Below are positions 9,269 to 18,273 of a stretch of DNA of 64,000 nt, piece after piece. The stretch spans positions 1-64,000 of the forward strand of contig JARKOY010000165.1 in NCBI GenBank assembly GCA_029975555.1. Direction: 5' to 3'. Below the pieces are notes generated by a model, which did not search any database, was not told the origin of the DNA, and saw only the letters and a program-made list of their open reading frames with translations. This stretch comes from Spirochaetia bacterium. GTDB lineage: Bacteria; Spirochaetota; Spirochaetia; Treponematales; Rectinemataceae. The position numbers were made by a program, and so were the translations under genes. Position 1 is the stretch's first letter. The number at the start of each line of letters is the position of its first letter.

Positions 9269-9961
9269 TCATGTTGGTTTCCGGGTCAACCTATTTCTGG
9301 CTGCAAAGAGCGCAGCCTGGATTCTGTCTCTGAAGCCGAGCGTCGTCAGGATGTTCGATATGTAATTTTTGACCGTGCCTTCGCTCAACGAGAGCGTCTC
9401 GGCGATCTCCGAATTTGTCAGCCCCTCCCCGACGAGAGCGAGAACGTGCCGCTCGCGCTCGGTGAGAAAGTTGTACTGCTCCAGCGCCGCCGCATCGGAT
9501 GAAAGCTCTTTGTCCGCATCCTGAAGCGACTGTAGGGAACCGAGGAGTTTATTCATGACTTCTCCGTTGGCCAGGAAAACGCCTTTGACAACCTGCTTGA
9601 TCGCCCTGACGAGGTCTTCGCTGGGCAGATCTTTGAGGAGATACCCTACGGCCCCCGAGCGGAGGGAGCGCACGATGTATTCCTTGTCGTCGAAGGTCGT
9701 GAGCATCACGATATAGGGGGATGTGCCTTCGGCGCGGATCTGCTCGAGGGCCGCAATGCCGTCCATGACCGGCATGCGGATGTCCAGAAGACAGACATCG
9801 GGCCTGCACTGACGGGCGAGGGCCACGGCTTCCTTTCCGTTTTCCACCGTCCCCACGACGAGTATTTCCTCGTCGAGCCCCAAAAGCGACGCGATGCCGT
9901 CCCGAACGAGCCGTTGGTCGTCTGCCACGAGGACTTTGATCTTTTTACTGACGGGCGACAT
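9269..9961 (-). CDS. NarL/FixJ-type response regulator
   Basis: A 230-residue two-domain regulator. The receiver domain (residues 8-125) has the acidic pair in VLVADDQ, phospho-acceptor Asp60 in LLDIRMP, and the Lys of YLLKDLP. The C-terminal LuxR-type helix-turn-helix reads LTERERHVLALVGEGLTNSE then EGTVKNYISNIL. The start is ATG 9961 with GGGGAG nearby; it overlaps the end of the kinase gene by 17 bases, so the pair is translationally coupled. The likely target is the divergent efflux operon, whose intergenic region carries overlapping palindromes; this is inference. Confidence 0.92.
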   Translation of the reverse strand: MSPVSKKIKVLVADDQRLVRDGIASLLGLDEEILVVGTVENGKEAVALARQCRPDVCLLDIRMPVMDGIAALEQIRAEGTSPYIVMLTTFDDKEYIVRSLRSGAVGYLLKDLPSEDLVRAIKQVVKGVFLANGEVMNKLLGSLQSLQDADKELSSDAAALEQYNFLTERERHVLALVGEGLTNSEIAETLSLSEGTVKNYISNILTTLGFRDRIQAALFAARNRLTRKPT

Positions 9962-11273
9962 TGTCACTCCCCTTTCCTATGAGGGCCACGGGGTCCTTCG
10001 GCATGCAAGTCTTTAGGGCCGTGCCGGTGCCGGGTGCCGACTCGATGGAAAAGGTCCCCCTCACGAGGCTGATCCTATCAGACAGCCCGGTGAGGCCATA
10101 GCCGGAAACATCCTTATTTTTCATGGCTCGAGGATCGAAGCCCCTGCCATCGTCTCTGAGCTCGGCACATGCCTGATCACCGTCCAGCCGGATTTTCAAC
10201 TTCACTTCGCGAGCCTCGGCGTGCTTGAGTATATTCGTCACTCCTTCCTGGACAAAACGGTACAGCGCAAGGAGCACGGATATATTGTAGCCTTCGGTGC
10301 TTCCCCGTATGTCTGCAGTTACGGATATCCCAGCCTGCCTGAGGCTCTCGAGCGGTTTCTGCACCTGCGAGAAAAGGTCGAAGCCTTCGGTTGGATTGTT
10401 GAGCGTGTCGAGGGTCGAACGGATATCGAGCATGGCTTCGTGCATGCTCGTCCGTGCATCGACGATCGCCTTTATTGAGACTTCCGGGTTTTTTCTGAAA
10501 AAGGCCTCCGCCTTGTTGAGCTGAATGGAGATGGCCGTGAGGGTGTGACCCAGGTTGTCGTGGATATCGCGGGCTATTCTTGTCCGCTCCTCGAGTGCCA
10601 CGACGCGGGACACTCTGGAGGCATAGCGCCTGAGCTCTTCCTGATTCGCCTGGATCTCCGCCATGAGGGCAGCCTGCCGTTCGCGGTTTTTTCCATCTTC
10701 CTTCCAGAACAGCCCAAAGAGAAACATCAATAGGATGCTCATGAGTTGGTAGAGGAGGATCACTATTCCATAGGAATTGTCGGATATTGGAGTGTCTGTA
10801 GGCACAGGGGCAGTAAAGAACAACAATAGCTGTACCAGCCAAAAAAAGGCCACCACGGCATAACTCCACGCCTGCCTGAACACCAAAGAGAGATAAAAGG
10901 TCAAAAGCGGGGCCATAAGCCTCATCATGCCGGGCATGAGTCCAGGGAAGAAAACGATGAGGACACAGACAGGAATGCAGCGCACCACCGTGATCGCCAC
11001 GCCATCCCGCAAGTTTTTCCACCTGTAGTTCCACGCCAAAAATTCGAATACCTCGAGGGCCAGCCAGAACCCTATGATGGCGACATTGAGCGCGCCCATA
11101 AGCGAGTAATCGGACGGAACTCGTCCCCCGTGCTCCCTCCTGAAAGGGGCCGGCTGCATTGTCAGCATGAAATGAAAGAGAAAAAAGAGCATCATGAGGA
11201 TGAGCCTGGTTACATCCCGCTCTTTGGATGGCTTCGAAAGAGGGTTCGCCATAGGTGCACTATACTTCAGCAC
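9945..11273 (-). CDS. NarX-type membrane sensor histidine kinase (HisKA_3)
   Basis: A 442-residue kinase. The first 190 residues contain about six membrane segments without a large periplasmic domain, so it may sense a signal in or near the membrane. A short coiled coil follows (residues 195-230), then the HisKA_3 box RIARDIHDNLGHTLTA with phospho-acceptor His238, and the ATPase domain with VQEGVTNILKHA (N box), DDGRGFDP and GYGLTGLSDR (G boxes). I use the GTG start at 11273 because AGGGA precedes it; ATG 11252 is an alternative. It forms an operon with the response regulator. Confidence 0.9.
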   Translation of the reverse strand: MLKYSAPMANPLSKPSKERDVTRLILMMLFFLFHFMLTMQPAPFRREHGGRVPSDYSLMGALNVAIIGFWLALEVFEFLAWNYRWKNLRDGVAITVVRCIPVCVLIVFFPGLMPGMMRLMAPLLTFYLSLVFRQAWSYAVVAFFWLVQLLLFFTAPVPTDTPISDNSYGIVILLYQLMSILLMFLFGLFWKEDGKNRERQAALMAEIQANQEELRRYASRVSRVVALEERTRIARDIHDNLGHTLTAISIQLNKAEAFFRKNPEVSIKAIVDARTSMHEAMLDIRSTLDTLNNPTEGFDLFSQVQKPLESLRQAGISVTADIRGSTEGYNISVLLALYRFVQEGVTNILKHAEAREVKLKIRLDGDQACAELRDDGRGFDPRAMKNKDVSGYGLTGLSDRISLVRGTFSIESAPGTGTALKTCMPKDPVALIGKGSDNVARQ

Positions 11274-11425: not shown

Positions 11426-12463
11426 ATGAAAAAAGGGGATTCCCAGAATTTGGCACGAACCATAATCATCATAGCGATAACGGTGATAATGGTCGTGATT
11501 GTATTCAAGGCCCTTGGATTCAAAATTACGAGGGGCTCATCTGTGGCTCCGCCAGAAGCACCTCTTCCTGCGGCGGCCCCGTCCAAAGGAGCCGCGGTCC
11601 CCCTCCAATCCTCAAAAGGCGGGAACACGACCACAGAACCACAGAAAATTGCCGTCCGTGCCAGCACAATAACTATAGGTTCAATAAGCAATTATATAAA
11701 GACCCAGGGCGACGTCGTGGCCAACAGCGAGGTCAAAATCTATCCCAAAATGGAAGGCAAAATCCTTGAGAGGAAAGTTTCTGTCGGCGCTCAAGTCTCG
11801 GCTGGAGATGTGATCGCCCTTGTGGACCCATCGGAAGTGGGGAAAAAATATCTGCCCAATCCCGTTGAATCCACGGTCTCAGGAACGGTCCTTTCAATTC
11901 CTGTTCACGAAGGCGACAAAGTCACCACAACGACAGTCGTCGCCACCGTCGGAGACATCTCTCGGATAAAAATCGAAACCTATGTACCGGAAAAATATAT
12001 ATCCAATCTCAAAATCGGAACGGCGGCAGAAATAAGCTTCGACGCCATCCCCGGAACTGTATTCGACGCAAAGATATCAGAGATTAATCCAGTCGTCGAT
12101 GCGGAAAGCCGCACCATTAAAATATCCCTTAGGCTCAACAAGGCGGACTCGCGCGTCCTTGTAGGAATGTCGGCCACAGTGAGACTCGTCATCGAGCAGC
12201 GCAAAAACGTCATTGTAGCGCCGAGAGATGCCATTACACAGAATACTGAGGAAGAAGGTTATGTTTTCGTCATAAAAAATGACGATACCGTCGAACAGAG
12301 GACAGTATCCCTCGGCATGGAGGCAGAAAGTGCCTTTGAAATAAAGAAAGGACTCAGTGTTGGCGACAAGGTAGTCACTGAAGGTAAAAATTTACTTAAA
12401 GATGGCAGCAGTATAAAGATTATCAATGGTGGTGATGAAACAAAGGCAGGAGTAATACAATGA
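11426..12463 (+). CDS. RND efflux periplasmic adaptor (membrane fusion protein)
   Basis: A 345-residue adaptor subunit. It has one N-terminal membrane anchor (residues 9-30), a Pro/Ala-rich linker, then a barrel-sandwich (lipoyl-like) hybrid domain split around a very short hairpin (KMEGKILERKVSVGAQVSAG ... SGTVLSIPVHEGDKV), a beta-barrel domain (TYVPEKYISNLKIGTAAEIS), and a membrane-proximal domain. The long helical hairpin of AcrA-type adaptors is almost absent, as in some adaptors of spirochaetes and Bacteroidetes. The stop overlaps the start of the RND pump by four bases. The ribosome site GAAGGAG precedes the ATG. Confidence 0.92.
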   Translation: MKKGDSQNLARTIIIIAITVIMVVIVFKALGFKITRGSSVAPPEAPLPAAAPSKGAAVPLQSSKGGNTTTEPQKIAVRASTITIGSISNYIKTQGDVVANSEVKIYPKMEGKILERKVSVGAQVSAGDVIALVDPSEVGKKYLPNPVESTVSGTVLSIPVHEGDKVTTTTVVATVGDISRIKIETYVPEKYISNLKIGTAAEISFDAIPGTVFDAKISEINPVVDAESRTIKISLRLNKADSRVLVGMSATVRLVIEQRKNVIVAPRDAITQNTEEEGYVFVIKNDDTVEQRTVSLGMEAESAFEIKKGLSVGDKVVTEGKNLLKDGSSIKIINGGDETKAGVIQ

Positions 12464-15400
12464 GTGTCGTCCGCACATCGATTGATCACCCCGTCACCAC
12501 GTTGATGGTGTACATTCTTCTCTGTGGTCTAGCCGTCGTCTTCGTAACCCAGCTTCCTGTCGCTCTTTTCCCAGATACAGATATGCCCATAATTTCGGTG
12601 AGCACTACCTACTCCGGCGCCGGCCCTGAAGACGTCGAGCAGAATGTGACCAAGGTGCTTGAAGATGCTCTTTCCTCCGTCGAGGGACTCCACAAAATGA
12701 CATCGACATCAAAGCAGGGAGAAAGCACGATTTCTCTCGAATTTGAGTACGGTGTGAATCTCGATCACACTCAATATTTGGTCGATTCTGCGATTAACGG
12801 TGTCTTGGATAGTCTCCCAGAGGATGCAGACACGCCAAGAATACAGCGTTTTAGTGGCTCCTCCATGCCGATCATGACCCTCGCCGTGAAGGGGAACCGC
12901 CCTCTTAAAGAACTGCAGAAAATCGGAGAAGACACGATTGAACCGCAGCTGGAGCGGATCAATGGGGTGGCTTCGGCAAGGGTCATTGGAGGGAGCGACA
13001 GCATCATAGCGGTGAACGTGTCCCAGAGCAGGCTCGCCGCATACAACATGACCGTCACCGACGTGGCCAATGCCCTCGCCTCACAGAACATCCTCGTGTC
13101 GGGAGGGAACATCGTACGAGGCACTACGCAATATCAAATCAGCACCAACGAAACGCTCTCGAGCATCGATCAGGTCAAGCGTCTGGTGATAAAGACAGTG
13201 AAGGACGACGATGCATCGAGCAACCGAATCGTCTACCTTGAGGATATCGCCGAGGTAAAAGAATCTGAAGACGAGCCTGACAGAATCGTCTATGTGAATG
13301 GCCAGAGGGCGATCAATATTTCAATAGTGAAGGAAAGCGGGAGCAATGCGGTCCAGATATCCCGTCAGGTGCATGCTGCGCTCAAGAGCATCAACAAATC
13401 TCTGCCGAGCGGCGTGACGCTGGATGTACTCTCGGATGATACAACCCTCGTCGATTCTACGCTTCAAGAAGTCTACAGCTCGGCATGGCAGGGTATTGTG
13501 CTCGCAATGCTGGTGCTGCTTCTATATTTACGGAATTTAAAGGCAACATTCATCATAGGAGTATCGATACCTATTTCAATTCTCATAACTTTACTCTTGA
13601 TGTATTTCGCAGGTATCACGCTCAACACGATAAGCCTGACCGGCCTCATCATGGGACTCGGCATGGTGGTCGATGCGTCCATCGTCATTATCGACAACAC
13701 CTATCGCTACCGCGAACGGGGGACCAAGCCAAAGATTGCCGCAATTCTCGGAAGTCAAGAGATGGTCACCGCCATTACGGCATCGACGTTGACGACACTC
13801 TGCGTCTTCATTCCCATCATCCTTTTCAAAAACAAATTAGGAATGATGGGCCAGATGTTTACGGACCTCGTGTTCACTGTCTGTTTTTCCCTCGCCGCCT
13901 CGCTCTTTGTTGCTCTGACCATTGTCCCCGTGCTCAGCGGGCCCGTCATGCATCTCGACACTCGTGTGCAGAAGCCGCTTAGAAATCCTCTTCTGAAAAA
14001 GATAGATGCCGGCATGGAGCGCTTCTTTTCGGCTCAAGATCGCGTATATAAAAGAGCAATCGAGTTTTGCCTGCATAATCGCCTATTGGTGATCGGGCTC
14101 GCCGTAGGTCTTCTGGCTGTCTCTGTCTTGTCGTTGAGCTCTTTCGGCCTGAACCTCTTCCCGCAGTCTAGCGCCGACGACAACATCAGTATAAACCTCA
14201 CGCTCCCTCTTGGGGCCACGAAAGAATACACTCAAAAAGTCCTTGAGAGTTTACAATCCGAAGTACAGGCGAAAATAAAAGGCTACAAAACTCTCAATTT
14301 GGTCGTCGGAGGAAGCGGAAGCCCTCTCGGCGGGGATTACGACAATGAAGGGTATCTCAAGATCATGTTGCCCGATCCTAAGGATCAGATCGACACGCCG
14401 ACGACGATTAAAGAGAAGTTAAGGCCCTATCTCGATGCATTGCCTGGTATCTCGTACACCTTTTCCTCCGGACGGCAAATCTCGTCAAGCTCGGCCGTCG
14501 ATGTGGAAATACGTTCCAAAGACCAAGTGGCCTCCCTTGCGGCGGCACAAGAGATTAAACGCTTGATAGCCGCCAACCTACCAGAAGTTGAGAACCTCAG
14601 CATTTCCCTCGAGGAAGGCTCCCCGGAGCTCCTCGTTCAAATCGACCGCGAGAAGGCAGCCTCGTACGGATTCTCGGTATCGGAAGTCGCGAATGAAATA
14701 CGCAGCGCATTTTACGGGGTAACCGCCACTACGTACAATTCTTCCGGAGATTTAATCGATGTAGTCGTGAGGCTCAGGGAAGAAGACAGAAAGACACTCT
14801 CTGATATGAAATCCCTCTTTCTCATCAATTCCTCCGGCACGAAGATCCCTATATCCAATTTTGTCTCTATTGTGAACAGCACCGTACCCCAACAGATCAA
14901 CCGTGAGAACAAAGAGAGAATCATCCACGTGGAAGGAGATATTAAAGCCAGTGCCAAGATGACCGCCACCGAAATAAGTCAGAAAGTGCAGGCATTGATC
15001 GATGAAAAATATATTCCCCGCGAGAACGTCACGGTTTCTCTCGGCGGAGAAACCATGGATATCAAAACATATTTGCCTGTATTCATCACCATTATTTTCC
15101 TCGCCGTATTCCTCGTGTACGGCGTTATGGCGAGCCAATTCGAATCCTTCCTCGATCCTTTTATAATCTTTTTGACCATCCCCACTATGTTTACCGGCGT
15201 CGTGTTCATCTACAAGATTACGGGCGATACGATGTCGCTGTTCTCCCTCATCGGTGTCGTGACGCTCGCTGGCGTCGTCGTGAACAACAGCATTGTCCTC
15301 GTGGACTATACCAACACGCTGAGAGCCCGCGGCATGCCCCTGTTTGAAGCGTGCAGCGAAGCGGGACGCCACAGGCTCAGGGCCATCATGATGTCCACGC

Positions 15401-15645
15401 TCACGACGATCTTCGGCATCATGCCCCTTGCGCTTTTCCCTGGTGCGGGGACAGAGACCATACAGCCCATCGCCAAAACCATGTTCGGAGGGCTCATGGT
15501 GAACTTCATCATCACCCTCTTAGTCACACCGGTGCTCTACTATATGTTCAACAGTCGCAAGGAGAGGAAAAATCTCATCGAAGAAGCAGCGTCTATCATT
15601 CCAGACATTGGCAAAGACCAGGAGGTTCCACATGGTGCGAACTGA
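12460..15645 (+). CDS. RND multidrug/solute efflux pump, AcrB/HAE1 type
   Basis: A 1061-residue inner-membrane proton antiporter with the standard plan: TM1 (MVYILLCGLAVVFVTQLPVA), a first large periplasmic porter loop with GAGPEDVEQNVTKVLEDAL, a six-helix bundle containing LMGLGMVVDASIVIIDN (TM4, with the acidic proton-relay residue), a second porter loop, and the C-terminal bundle with GVVVNNSIVLVDY. The length is usual for the family. It is the energised component of the tripartite pump encoded by the operon. The substrate cannot be predicted. It is probably controlled by the divergent two-component system (inference). Confidence 0.95.
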   Translation: MSVVRTSIDHPVTTLMVYILLCGLAVVFVTQLPVALFPDTDMPIISVSTTYSGAGPEDVEQNVTKVLEDALSSVEGLHKMTSTSKQGESTISLEFEYGVNLDHTQYLVDSAINGVLDSLPEDADTPRIQRFSGSSMPIMTLAVKGNRPLKELQKIGEDTIEPQLERINGVASARVIGGSDSIIAVNVSQSRLAAYNMTVTDVANALASQNILVSGGNIVRGTTQYQISTNETLSSIDQVKRLVIKTVKDDDASSNRIVYLEDIAEVKESEDEPDRIVYVNGQRAINISIVKESGSNAVQISRQVHAALKSINKSLPSGVTLDVLSDDTTLVDSTLQEVYSSAWQGIVLAMLVLLLYLRNLKATFIIGVSIPISILITLLLMYFAGITLNTISLTGLIMGLGMVVDASIVIIDNTYRYRERGTKPKIAAILGSQEMVTAITASTLTTLCVFIPIILFKNKLGMMGQMFTDLVFTVCFSLAASLFVALTIVPVLSGPVMHLDTRVQKPLRNPLLKKIDAGMERFFSAQDRVYKRAIEFCLHNRLLVIGLAVGLLAVSVLSLSSFGLNLFPQSSADDNISINLTLPLGATKEYTQKVLESLQSEVQAKIKGYKTLNLVVGGSGSPLGGDYDNEGYLKIMLPDPKDQIDTPTTIKEKLRPYLDALPGISYTFSSGRQISSSSAVDVEIRSKDQVASLAAAQEIKRLIAANLPEVENLSISLEEGSPELLVQIDREKAASYGFSVSEVANEIRSAFYGVTATTYNSSGDLIDVVVRLREEDRKTLSDMKSLFLINSSGTKIPISNFVSIVNSTVPQQINRENKERIIHVEGDIKASAKMTATEISQKVQALIDEKYIPRENVTVSLGGETMDIKTYLPVFITIIFLAVFLVYGVMASQFESFLDPFIIFLTIPTMFTGVVFIYKITGDTMSLFSLIGVVTLAGVVVNNSIVLVDYTNTLRARGMPLFEACSEAGRHRLRAIMMSTLTTIFGIMPLALFPGAGTETIQPIAKTMFGGLMVNFIITLLVTPVLYYMFNSRKERKNLIEEAASIIPDIGKDQEVPHGAN

Positions 15646-15952: not shown

Positions 15953-16972
15953 ATGAAATATCGAAGAAGTCTTTTTCTTGCACTGTGTGCCGTCTGTCTC
16001 GTGGTTGGAGCCTTGCCTGTGTCCGCAGGCACGCTCAAAGACCTATTTAACGCAGCGGTCAAATCGACACAGGATTATTCTGTCTACAAGCTGACCCTTG
16101 CACTCGCGGAGCTCAAAAAAACCAAGGGAGAAATCGAGGCAAAGGTCGAGCAAGATCGGGTGGAGGCTCAATATGACTATTCTGTCGCTGTCGCGGATTA
16201 CTGGACAAATGTGCTAAGTTACTACAACAAAGTCATCGAGGCGATATTCAACGCCGCGGTGGCTGACGCAGCCTACCAGTCGGCAAACCTCAGTTTCCAA
16301 AATGCTCAAGAAGATATGAAGTATGCTGAGGTACGATATAAAAACGGATTAATTTCTGAAGACACGTATAAAGAGATTGTGATCTCGTACAATACTGCAA
16401 AAACAGACCTCCAGCTGGCCGAATTCAAGTTGAGCGACGCTAAGTCCTATGTAAAATTTGTCACCGGCCTCGACTGGAGCCCAGATCTTCTGCCGGAAAC
16501 ACCTGCTTTCGAAGCGAACGCTACATTGGACGAGTGGGTGTCGAAAGACATCTCCCTGGAAAAAGCCAACCTTTATAAAAAACTGAATGATCTCAAGACT
16601 GCCGCCCTCGCGACTAACACCTCGATGTACGACAGACGCATTCAGGAGGCGGACAATGCCAAAGCCGCCGCCGAGGTCACCAACGCCGAAAACAGCGCCA
16701 AACGATCATACGAAGAGACCCTCTCCACGCTCGCAAACAACGCGGCAGTGCTCAAGATCAGGCAGGATGAATACGCCTTAAAACTCAGCCTTTATGAAGA
16801 AGCCAAAAAACAGTACGAAAAAGGCACCATTTCCTTGAGCAGCAAGAACGAAAAACAAATCGACGTATACACCGCCCAGCAGAATTTACTTTCCGCTCAG
16901 CAGAGTTACATCGAATCTGTGGCCTCATACCTTACTGGAATGAGAAAAAATCCAATAGGACTCGAAGAATAA
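15953..16972 (+). CDS. TolC-like coiled-coil protein lacking obvious barrel strands
   Basis: A 339-residue exported protein (signal peptide to about residue 25, ...PVSA). The rest is almost uninterrupted helix, with two TolC-type hairpin signatures: RYKNGLISEDTYKEIVISYN in the first half and QYEKGTISLSSKNEKQIDVY in the second, the typical y-x-x-G-x-I/L-s helix starts. The segments where TolC proteins have outer-membrane beta-strands are missing and the protein is about 100 residues shorter than usual. It therefore may be a periplasmic partner rather than a channel. AAGGAG precedes ATG 15953. Its stop overlaps the next TolC gene. Confidence 0.75.
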   Translation: MKYRRSLFLALCAVCLVVGALPVSAGTLKDLFNAAVKSTQDYSVYKLTLALAELKKTKGEIEAKVEQDRVEAQYDYSVAVADYWTNVLSYYNKVIEAIFNAAVADAAYQSANLSFQNAQEDMKYAEVRYKNGLISEDTYKEIVISYNTAKTDLQLAEFKLSDAKSYVKFVTGLDWSPDLLPETPAFEANATLDEWVSKDISLEKANLYKKLNDLKTAALATNTSMYDRRIQEADNAKAAAEVTNAENSAKRSYEETLSTLANNAAVLKIRQDEYALKLSLYEEAKKQYEKGTISLSSKNEKQIDVYTAQQNLLSAQQSYIESVASYLTGMRKNPIGLEE

Positions 16973-18273
16973 TGCGGCGACAATATATACTGATTTTGGC
17001 CATCGTCTCCGTTGCATCGCGGGGCTTCGCGGAAACTCTGTGGGACAAGGTTTATACCTCGCGACTCAACAGTTCATCCTCATATCTCGAAGCAAAACTC
17101 GAGCTGAAATCCGCCGAGGTGGACTACGATCAATACGTAAAACCGTACATTCCCTCTCTCTCCCTCTCTACGTACAGCAGCGCAGAAGGCGTTTATGAGT
17201 CAGGAATAACTATTGGAAGTGACACCGCGGCATCTGGGGGAGCATTGATCCCGACACTCACATTCGAAAATATTCTTGCAGGCACCGATCTGAGCTTGAA
17301 ATCACCGATCACCTTTTCTTCTGCGGGCAAAGTGAGCCTAACAAATCCGAGCGTAAGCCTCAGCCGCCAGCTTTTCCCGGAAACCGAGGCCAACCGTTTG
17401 GAGAAAGAGGCAAGCCTAGTGTCGGCGCAAGCTTCTGTTCAGAAAATTCAGAACGATCTTAAAATCGACCTCATCACGGACATCCTCAATACCATATATT
17501 ACCAGAAGCTGCTCAAGACGAACCAGGAAAATCTTGAGGTCCTAAAAAAGATAAGGGAGGCCACGGTCGATACCACCAAATTCCGTGATCTGGATAAAAA
17601 GATTCTCAATGCTCAAAAAGCAATCTTGGAAGCGACCAATTATCTTGCCGAAATCAAAGACGATGTCAAGAACAATGCGGAGGCACTCTATCAGGATGTC
17701 TTACGCCTTCAGGAAGGATGGCTCGGTTCAATCAAGGGCGACAACCCAACGACCTCCAAGACGATACGCTCCATCGAGCTTTCCCTGGCCGCCGCAGAAA
17801 AGAAAGAAACATTATCTATATTGCCCTATCTGCCCAACCCGACCATTACGGCTTCATTGTACTACGATACGGACAAAAGTAAGCTTGAATGGGGGCTGAC
17901 TTTCAAGCTGTCATACGACATGTTCAGTAAGGGTAAGAATTCCTTAAGCGCATTACAACGTCAAGAATATCCTAAGATATACAGAATCAAGCTCTCAGAT
18001 GCCCAAAGAGAACTAAAAGAGAATCTCCGGAAGATCAGCGAGACGCTCCAATCTTTGGAACTGGATAAAAAAATTAAGGAGATAGAGATCGCCGATTCTC
18101 AAGAGGAAGCCATACGGCAAGAGAACCTCTATAAAAACGGTTTTGTCTCAAAGGAGGATTACACCACGGCACAGATCGATCTTGAGACTCTTAAACTGGA
18201 TTTACAGAAAATAGACTTTGATATTCTCATTCAAAAGCTGACGCTTGCGCGGTATTATGAAGAGGCACAATGA
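16972..18273 (+). CDS. TolC-family outer-membrane efflux channel
   Basis: A 433-residue exported protein (signal peptide ending near F-A). Unlike its neighbour it has both expected strand-rich blocks, residues 45-130 (YIPSLSLSTYSSAEGVYESG onwards) and residues 285-320 (NPTITASLYYD then WGLTFKLSYDMFSKG), each followed by long helices; RQENLYKNGFVSKEDYTTAQ is the second TolC hairpin signature. It should form the outer-membrane exit of the pump. The ATG lies directly on the stop of the preceding TolC-like gene (TAATG overlap), so both are made together. Confidence 0.9.
   Translation: MRRQYILILAIVSVASRGFAETLWDKVYTSRLNSSSSYLEAKLELKSAEVDYDQYVKPYIPSLSLSTYSSAEGVYESGITIGSDTAASGGALIPTLTFENILAGTDLSLKSPITFSSAGKVSLTNPSVSLSRQLFPETEANRLEKEASLVSAQASVQKIQNDLKIDLITDILNTIYYQKLLKTNQENLEVLKKIREATVDTTKFRDLDKKILNAQKAILEATNYLAEIKDDVKNNAEALYQDVLRLQEGWLGSIKGDNPTTSKTIRSIELSLAAAEKKETLSILPYLPNPTITASLYYDTDKSKLEWGLTFKLSYDMFSKGKNSLSALQRQEYPKIYRIKLSDAQRELKENLRKISETLQSLELDKKIKEIEIADSQEEAIRQENLYKNGFVSKEDYTTAQIDLETLKLDLQKIDFDILIQKLTLARYYEEAQ

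Follow-up and report, generated by a model that had tools for sequence, protein, structure and literature searches.

A candidate two-gene outer-membrane factor in spirochaete RND efflux operons: a TolC-family protein predicted to lack barrel strands, and its tandem partner

Described systems and the operon of the window

In the outer-membrane factors (OMFs) known so far, three protomers assemble and each supplies four strands to a 12-stranded barrel (passages of PMC8407342 and PMC8277102). The two tandem proteins considered here, which we call SHORT and LONG, resemble the TolC/OprM/CusC family (PF02321) in the fold of the helical body, the two internal repeats, the Gly motif at the tip and their place in an operon with an MFP and an RND gene. 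They differ from that family in the strands predicted for them, none in SHORT and six in LONG, and in being found only together.

Among spirochaetes, Treponema pallidum likewise carries several tandem OMF genes in an efflux operon (TP0966-TP0969), and PMC8407342 models each of them with four strands and as a homotrimer of its own. The Borrelia BesABC pump is closer in another respect, being a spirochaete RND system with a hairpin-less adaptor, BesA, which is the closest solved structure by sequence to the adaptor described below; unlike the present pump, it has one OMF, BesC. In the genomes (0.9-1.8 Mb) of family f7, which we take to be Borrelia and its kin, the matching OMF frames are 419-479 amino acids long. 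Heteromeric parts of RND pumps are also known, namely the MdtB2C permease and the TriAB adaptor (in a passage of PMC4338810); they share hetero-oligomeric construction with the arrangement proposed here, but are inner-membrane permeases and adaptors, not OMFs. No description of a heteromeric or barrel-less OMF was found in the open-licence literature searched.

The window, by which we mean the whole stretch of 64,000 nucleotides that was analysed, lies within contig C23 of a 3.27 Mb genome in 179 contigs, reported as 99% complete. On its plus strand runs an operon in the order MFP-RND-PG0541-SHORT-LONG, flanked by a divergent two-component system:

9269 to 9967, minus strand: LuxR-type response regulator pairing with the HisKA_3 kinase
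9945 to 11273, minus strand: sensor kinase (HisKA_3), divergent from the operon
11426 to 12463, plus strand: periplasmic adaptor (MFP/HlyD) without alpha-hairpin; closest PDB sequence BesA (4kks)
12460 to 15645, plus strand: RND permease (ACR_tran), 1061 amino acids
15632 to 15937, plus strand: PG0541-family transporter-associated protein (NF045581, E 2e-20), its gene starting within the 3' end of the RND gene
15953 to 16972, plus strand: SHORT, putatively barrel-less TolC/OMF-family protein, 339 amino acids (OEP match, model, alignments)
16972 to 18273, plus strand: LONG, OMF-family protein, 433 amino acids, predicted to carry six strands, of which four fall in repeat 1 and two in repeat 2

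Permease, adaptor and OMF genes thus lie together, as in a tripartite RND pump. The preliminary description of this DNA had reported two tandem TolC-family genes overlapping by one base, and their coordinates, lengths and overlap (TAATG at 16970-16974) were all verified. The start of the PG0541-family gene at 15632 was picked from its relatives, the open reading frame list having a TTG at 15608. A whole-genome OEP search (E <= 0.001) found no OEP protein besides SHORT and LONG, so neither has another known partner in this genome, of which they seem to be the sole OMF pair. The HisKA_3 kinase is, from its position, a probable regulator of the operon. The two-component system (9269-11273, minus strand) adjoins the operon in five of the nine genome-collection loci (L035, L036, L038, L039 and L040), and for this reason it may control the pump.

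Other adaptors carry an alpha-hairpin between the lipoyl halves. The first PDB match of the window's adaptor is Borrelia BesA (4kks, E 5e-39), aligned gaplessly across the lipoyl halves, and the insertion between them is absent in all 16 adaptors examined beside the SHORT-LONG pair. The window's adaptor has no OMF-docking alpha-hairpin; since BesABC pumps nonetheless, such a hairpin characterises the typical form only. The idea that SHORT is a general substitute for the adaptor hairpin is weakened by locus L130, in which, read from the sequence, a single ordinary OMF gene stands beside a hairpin-less adaptor.

Fold of SHORT and LONG

SHORT is best described as a TolC-family protein minus both beta-segments, a fold well supported by its predicted structure and by alignment. 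It begins with a signal-like segment (by eye), no lipobox pattern was found in it, and it matches the Pfam OEP profile (PF02321) above cut-off at E 7.7e-11. The best stretch covers profile positions 86-179 and the second, from the genome search, positions 82-181; both correspond to the helical second half of a repeat. The same family is matched by 19 of 21 SHORT proteins at E <= 0.01, and SHORT belongs with the OMFs by its OEP match and its helical hairpin arms, the barrel strands being the part that is missing.

The AlphaFold2 model of SHORT, built from a 9-row alignment, is all-helical and without a strand (mean pLDDT 82.5, with 182 of the 339 residues scoring at least 90 and residues 13-39 below 50). 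Its helix 28-123 is modelled straight, with block means below 60 up to residue 60, and the turn that a TolC-like fold requires near residue 64 is absent from the model. A Foldseek search with this model gave TolC as the best match (E 3.1e-7, TM 0.57), and the 43 matches at E <= 0.001 bear TolC/OprM/CusC-type titles bar six rows (5azo, 5azp, 5azs), which are titled just 'membrane protein from Pseudomonas aeruginosa'. VIA aligned 285 residues of SHORT with TolC 9tg4_A (Z 18.9, rmsd 5.2 Å), the best non-OMF row reaching Z 10.9. A PDB sequence search with SHORT alone gave chance-level matches only (best E 0.057).

Alignment leads to the same picture. Profile-profile comparison with 15 non-redundant spirochaete OMFs, our set of ordinary OMFs, aligned 338 of 341 SHORT columns, the largest gaps being the two beta segments; both helical hairpins are kept, and tight turns stand in place of both beta segments. 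The base-to-tip span of SHORT is 71 residues for the first repeat and 72 for the second, in 21 of 21 proteins down to 18% identity, while the medians in the ordinary OMFs (n=15) are 110 (103-142) and 114 (105-125). A TolC arm is about 66 residues long, and the SHORT spans fit such an arm plus a tight turn. All 21 proteins share an Asn in the second turn (N222), and Gly occupies both tips in 18 of 21 and tip 1 in 19 of 21. A by-eye estimate that the first hairpin exceeds the usual length by about 14 residues did not hold when residues were counted on the alignments.

It had been proposed from the letters alone that the 339-residue protein has the hairpin signatures of TolC without the barrel strands, and that a structure prediction with normal strands, or homologues of ordinary length, would speak against this. 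The proposal is borne out by the strandless model and the spans of 71 and 72, no normal barrel strands being seen, and the homologues retain both its length and its architecture down to 18% identity, which argues against a sequencing or deletion artefact. Ordinary-length OMFs do match the SHORT profile, but weakly and partially.

LONG belongs to the OMFs both by an OEP match above cut-off, with profile positions 2-184 as its best stretch and PF02321 matched by 19 of 19 LONG proteins at E <= 0.01, and by TolC fold (Foldseek, model against TolC, E 6.5e-11); a PDB sequence search with LONG alone was at chance level (best E 0.71). Strands are modelled at 60-68, 91-101, 105-110 with 113-115, 121-123 with 127-133, 291-299 and 304-312, which makes six when short strands are joined, with block mean pLDDT of 35-69 over residues 51-140. 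Six strands, against four in known OMFs, is therefore a low-confidence prediction, and the true number may be four, the remainder forming a surface hairpin, given the low confidence and the equally long first segment of some ordinary OMFs. A Gly in the turn that joins the two extra strands is invariant in 19 of 19.

The spans of LONG are also peculiar. Between the first base Pro and tip 1 lie 132 residues (125-140) against 110 (103-142) in ordinary OMFs, ranges that overlap, and between the second Pro and tip 2 lie 100 in 19 of 19 against 114 (105-125). The distances from F135 to tip 1 (62) and from P290 to tip 2 (100) are unchanged in 19 of 19. The beta part of repeat 1 (P61 to F135) comprises 70 residues (63-78); that of ordinary OMFs comes to about 44 (37-76) if an assumed arm of 66 is subtracted. 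LONG had been called a complete TolC, a wording that needs revision in view of the six predicted strands and the unusual spans. These six strands, the lack of a hairpin in the adaptor and the movement of the pair from one RND type to another, described below, had no place in the preliminary description.

Pairing, co-inheritance and exchange of the two genes

SHORT is known from 23 loci in at least nine families, including one single-contig genome, and the first eight relatives aligned are 43-66% identical at 337-339 amino acids. LONG lies directly 3' of SHORT in 22 of the 23 loci, and the 23rd ends, at a contig end, inside SHORT. Junctions were measured in 18 pairs, with start codons chosen by position. 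In 17 of them LONG starts at -4 to +2 nucleotides relative to the end of SHORT, and in the 18th at -32; ten of the 18 junctions are 4-nt overlaps.

Genome sampling gave the same association. Within the window's family, nine of 30 sampled genomes have SHORT and eight of the same nine have LONG; in the ninth (G003) the contig ends inside SHORT. Across the class, the SHORT profile matches 23 of 394 sampled genomes at E <= 1e-6, of which 14, in nine families, hold a true SHORT; the other nine matches are partial and fall on other OMFs in frames of 349-477 amino acids, one at a contig start. The LONG profile matches 16 of the 394 at E <= 1e-10, the same 14 and two weak ones. SHORT and LONG thus occur in the same 14 of 394 genomes, a count that takes no account of shared ancestry; most of the 14 are in hundreds of contigs, G538 having only the end of SHORT at a contig edge and G446 having LONG as two contig-end pieces. 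A solitary LONG in G549 and G571 (family f22) was considered and set aside, the weak matches being OMF pieces that contig ends have cut too short for a full judgement. The co-occurrence of short and long forms that had been suggested as a check is strongly positive, and the pair is found and inherited together.

No SHORT was found outside the class among 392 phylum genomes, class members included, with a wider profile at E <= 1e-10 and thin sampling; two non-SHORT matches in that search were partial and to ordinary-length OMFs. A search of viral contigs with P0001 found no relative. The nine genome-collection loci with a close SHORT relative are titled as seven spirochaete MAGs, one Lentisphaerae and one 'bacterium'. 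The locus titled Lentisphaerae bacterium (L040) has the whole window-type operon and the same two-component system, and is probably a misbinned contig. At L042:2268-7794 (G017) the RND gene is split into three parts and some 28 residues at and near the first tip are missing from LONG, so that the locus is either a decaying pump or an assembly error; at L041:1165-2423 (G028) LONG reads in two frames.

The pair is found in three gene neighbourhoods. The first, adaptor-RND-PG0541-SHORT-LONG, is that of the window, the family f1 loci, L098 and L102. The second, SHORT-LONG-adaptor-RND, has another RND type (L074, L097, L099, L101, L103, L104) and no PG0541 gene was found in it. The third, SHORT-LONG-RND, has a third RND type (L107, L108), and in these two stretches neither PG0541 nor an adaptor was found; the pairs at L107:4501-6836 and L108:6865-9176 (family f74) are the most divergent, with a SHORT without Gly at both tips. 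Of the 23 SHORT loci, 12 have a PG0541-family protein together with an RND of the window's type, one of these proteins being a fragment; none was found beside the other two types.

Distances between proteins separate an outer from an inner module. Over 13 loci they correlate at 0.94 for SHORT-LONG and 0.99 for RND-MFP, against 0.70 for SHORT-RND and 0.66 for LONG-RND, all cross-module correlations being 0.66-0.72, uncorrected for kinship. When the window's family was thinned (10 loci), the corresponding values were 0.89, 0.99, 0.33 and 0.32, with cross-module correlations of 0.32-0.36. In a bootstrap over loci, the SHORT-LONG minus SHORT-RND difference had a median of 0.23 (95% range 0.03 to 0.79; <= 0 in 0.6%). 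The clearest single case is L099 against L098, with SHORT 58% and LONG 60% identical, RND 23% and adaptor 20%. From the correlations and this case it follows, as far as sequence comparison can trace it, that the outer pair has been inherited as one unit and exchanged between different RND/adaptor modules. This exchange is the strongest indication in the sequences that SHORT and LONG work together.

A proposed two-gene duct and its alternatives

The explanation to which we lean, with somewhat more belief than doubt, is that SHORT and LONG are two obligate subunits of one OMF, LONG making the barrel and SHORT contributing hairpins. The preliminary description had suggested a hetero-oligomeric or periplasm-only helical partner in the exit duct, and this suggestion is partly supported. 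The physical complex, its lateral arrangement and its ratio are what we infer here. SHORT would be a TolC-fold protomer with both beta-hairpins cut out and periplasmic helical arms of normal length; LONG would carry all the membrane strands, two of them gained in repeat 1, and would close the barrel alone. The most likely arrangement would be a single helical tube of pseudo-sixfold symmetry in which the two lie next to each other, with SHORT occupying hairpin positions that stop at the plane of the membrane; this tube would dock on the hairpin-less BesA-type adaptor. The constant arm lengths in both proteins fit such side-by-side packing. The normal arm length of SHORT could also be mere inheritance.

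A more specific version, which we put forward tentatively and rather doubt, has two LONG and one SHORT restoring, by arithmetic, the 12 strands and six hairpins of TolC, in a duct of broken symmetry encoded by a two-gene cassette that moves between RND pumps whose adaptors lack the hairpin. That the strands lost by SHORT are made up in LONG belongs to this 2:1 reading and is equally doubtful. The 4+2 split of the LONG strands has no simple mapping onto the sectors that SHORT would leave open.

Placing SHORT elsewhere in the duct is unlikely in our estimation, though it has points to commend it. SHORT may form a homo-oligomeric periplasmic tube of its own, inserted end to end between the ring of adaptors and a homotrimer of LONG and bridging for the missing hairpin; the LONG homotrimer may then be 18-stranded, with the SHORT tube separate from it. 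The absence of the hairpin from all 16 adaptors beside the pair suits such a bridge, as does the Gly at both SHORT tips in 18 of 21, by which the lower end could dock in the manner of TolC, and the BesA paper leaves room, in the part concerned, for an as yet unnamed factor compensating for the hairpin (PMC3807786). Yet hairpin-less adaptors exist with a single ordinary OMF, in L130 and in Borrelia BesABC, so in principle a bridge is unneeded, and a stacked tube leaves unexplained why LONG was not found without SHORT among the 394 class genomes and why it has extra strands. Removing SHORT from the duct altogether, and making it a helper that chaperones the folding of LONG, plugs or gates it, or stabilises it from the side, rather like YbjP on TolC, seems to us quite unlikely. 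Tight translational coupling and strict pairing would suit a dedicated chaperone too, and the titles of TolC-YbjP structure entries indicate that TolC can carry an accessory protein (see also PMC13082787); a chaperone or plug, however, would hardly need the whole TolC helical body, which SHORT keeps with constant spans of 71/72 in 21 proteins and a Gly at tip 1 in 19 of 21.

It is extremely improbable that SHORT is a duplicate in decay, or an artefact of sequencing or assembly. Tandem OMF genes do occur in spirochaetes, as the four of T. pallidum (in the part of PMC8407342 concerned) and the tandem of G549 illustrate. Against this stand the 43-66% identity at constant size among the first eight relatives, the spread over at least nine families including a single-contig genome, and the constant base-to-tip length in 21 relatives; conservation and constant length refute artefact or truncation.

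For the pair read as two subunits of one OMF, a plausible origin would be two full OMFs in tandem, one of which then shed its barrel while its neighbour acquired additional strands. G549 (family f22; L127:1-7116) has, as read from its sequences, a contig-cut OMF, a full-length OMF, a hairpin-less adaptor, an RND gene and a PG0541-like gene, an arrangement that is possibly the ancestral form of the SHORT-LONG pair.

If the two-subunit reading is true, the pair would break the rule of a homotrimeric OMF whose protomers have four strands each, and the helical tube and the membrane barrel would be divisible between different genes. The Pfam label of SHORT, 'Outer membrane efflux protein', could then mislead, as SHORT alone would form no channel. 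The pair would also serve as a natural experiment on the parts of TolC that are enough to make a tube, and would help to explain how hairpin-less adaptors hold the exit duct.
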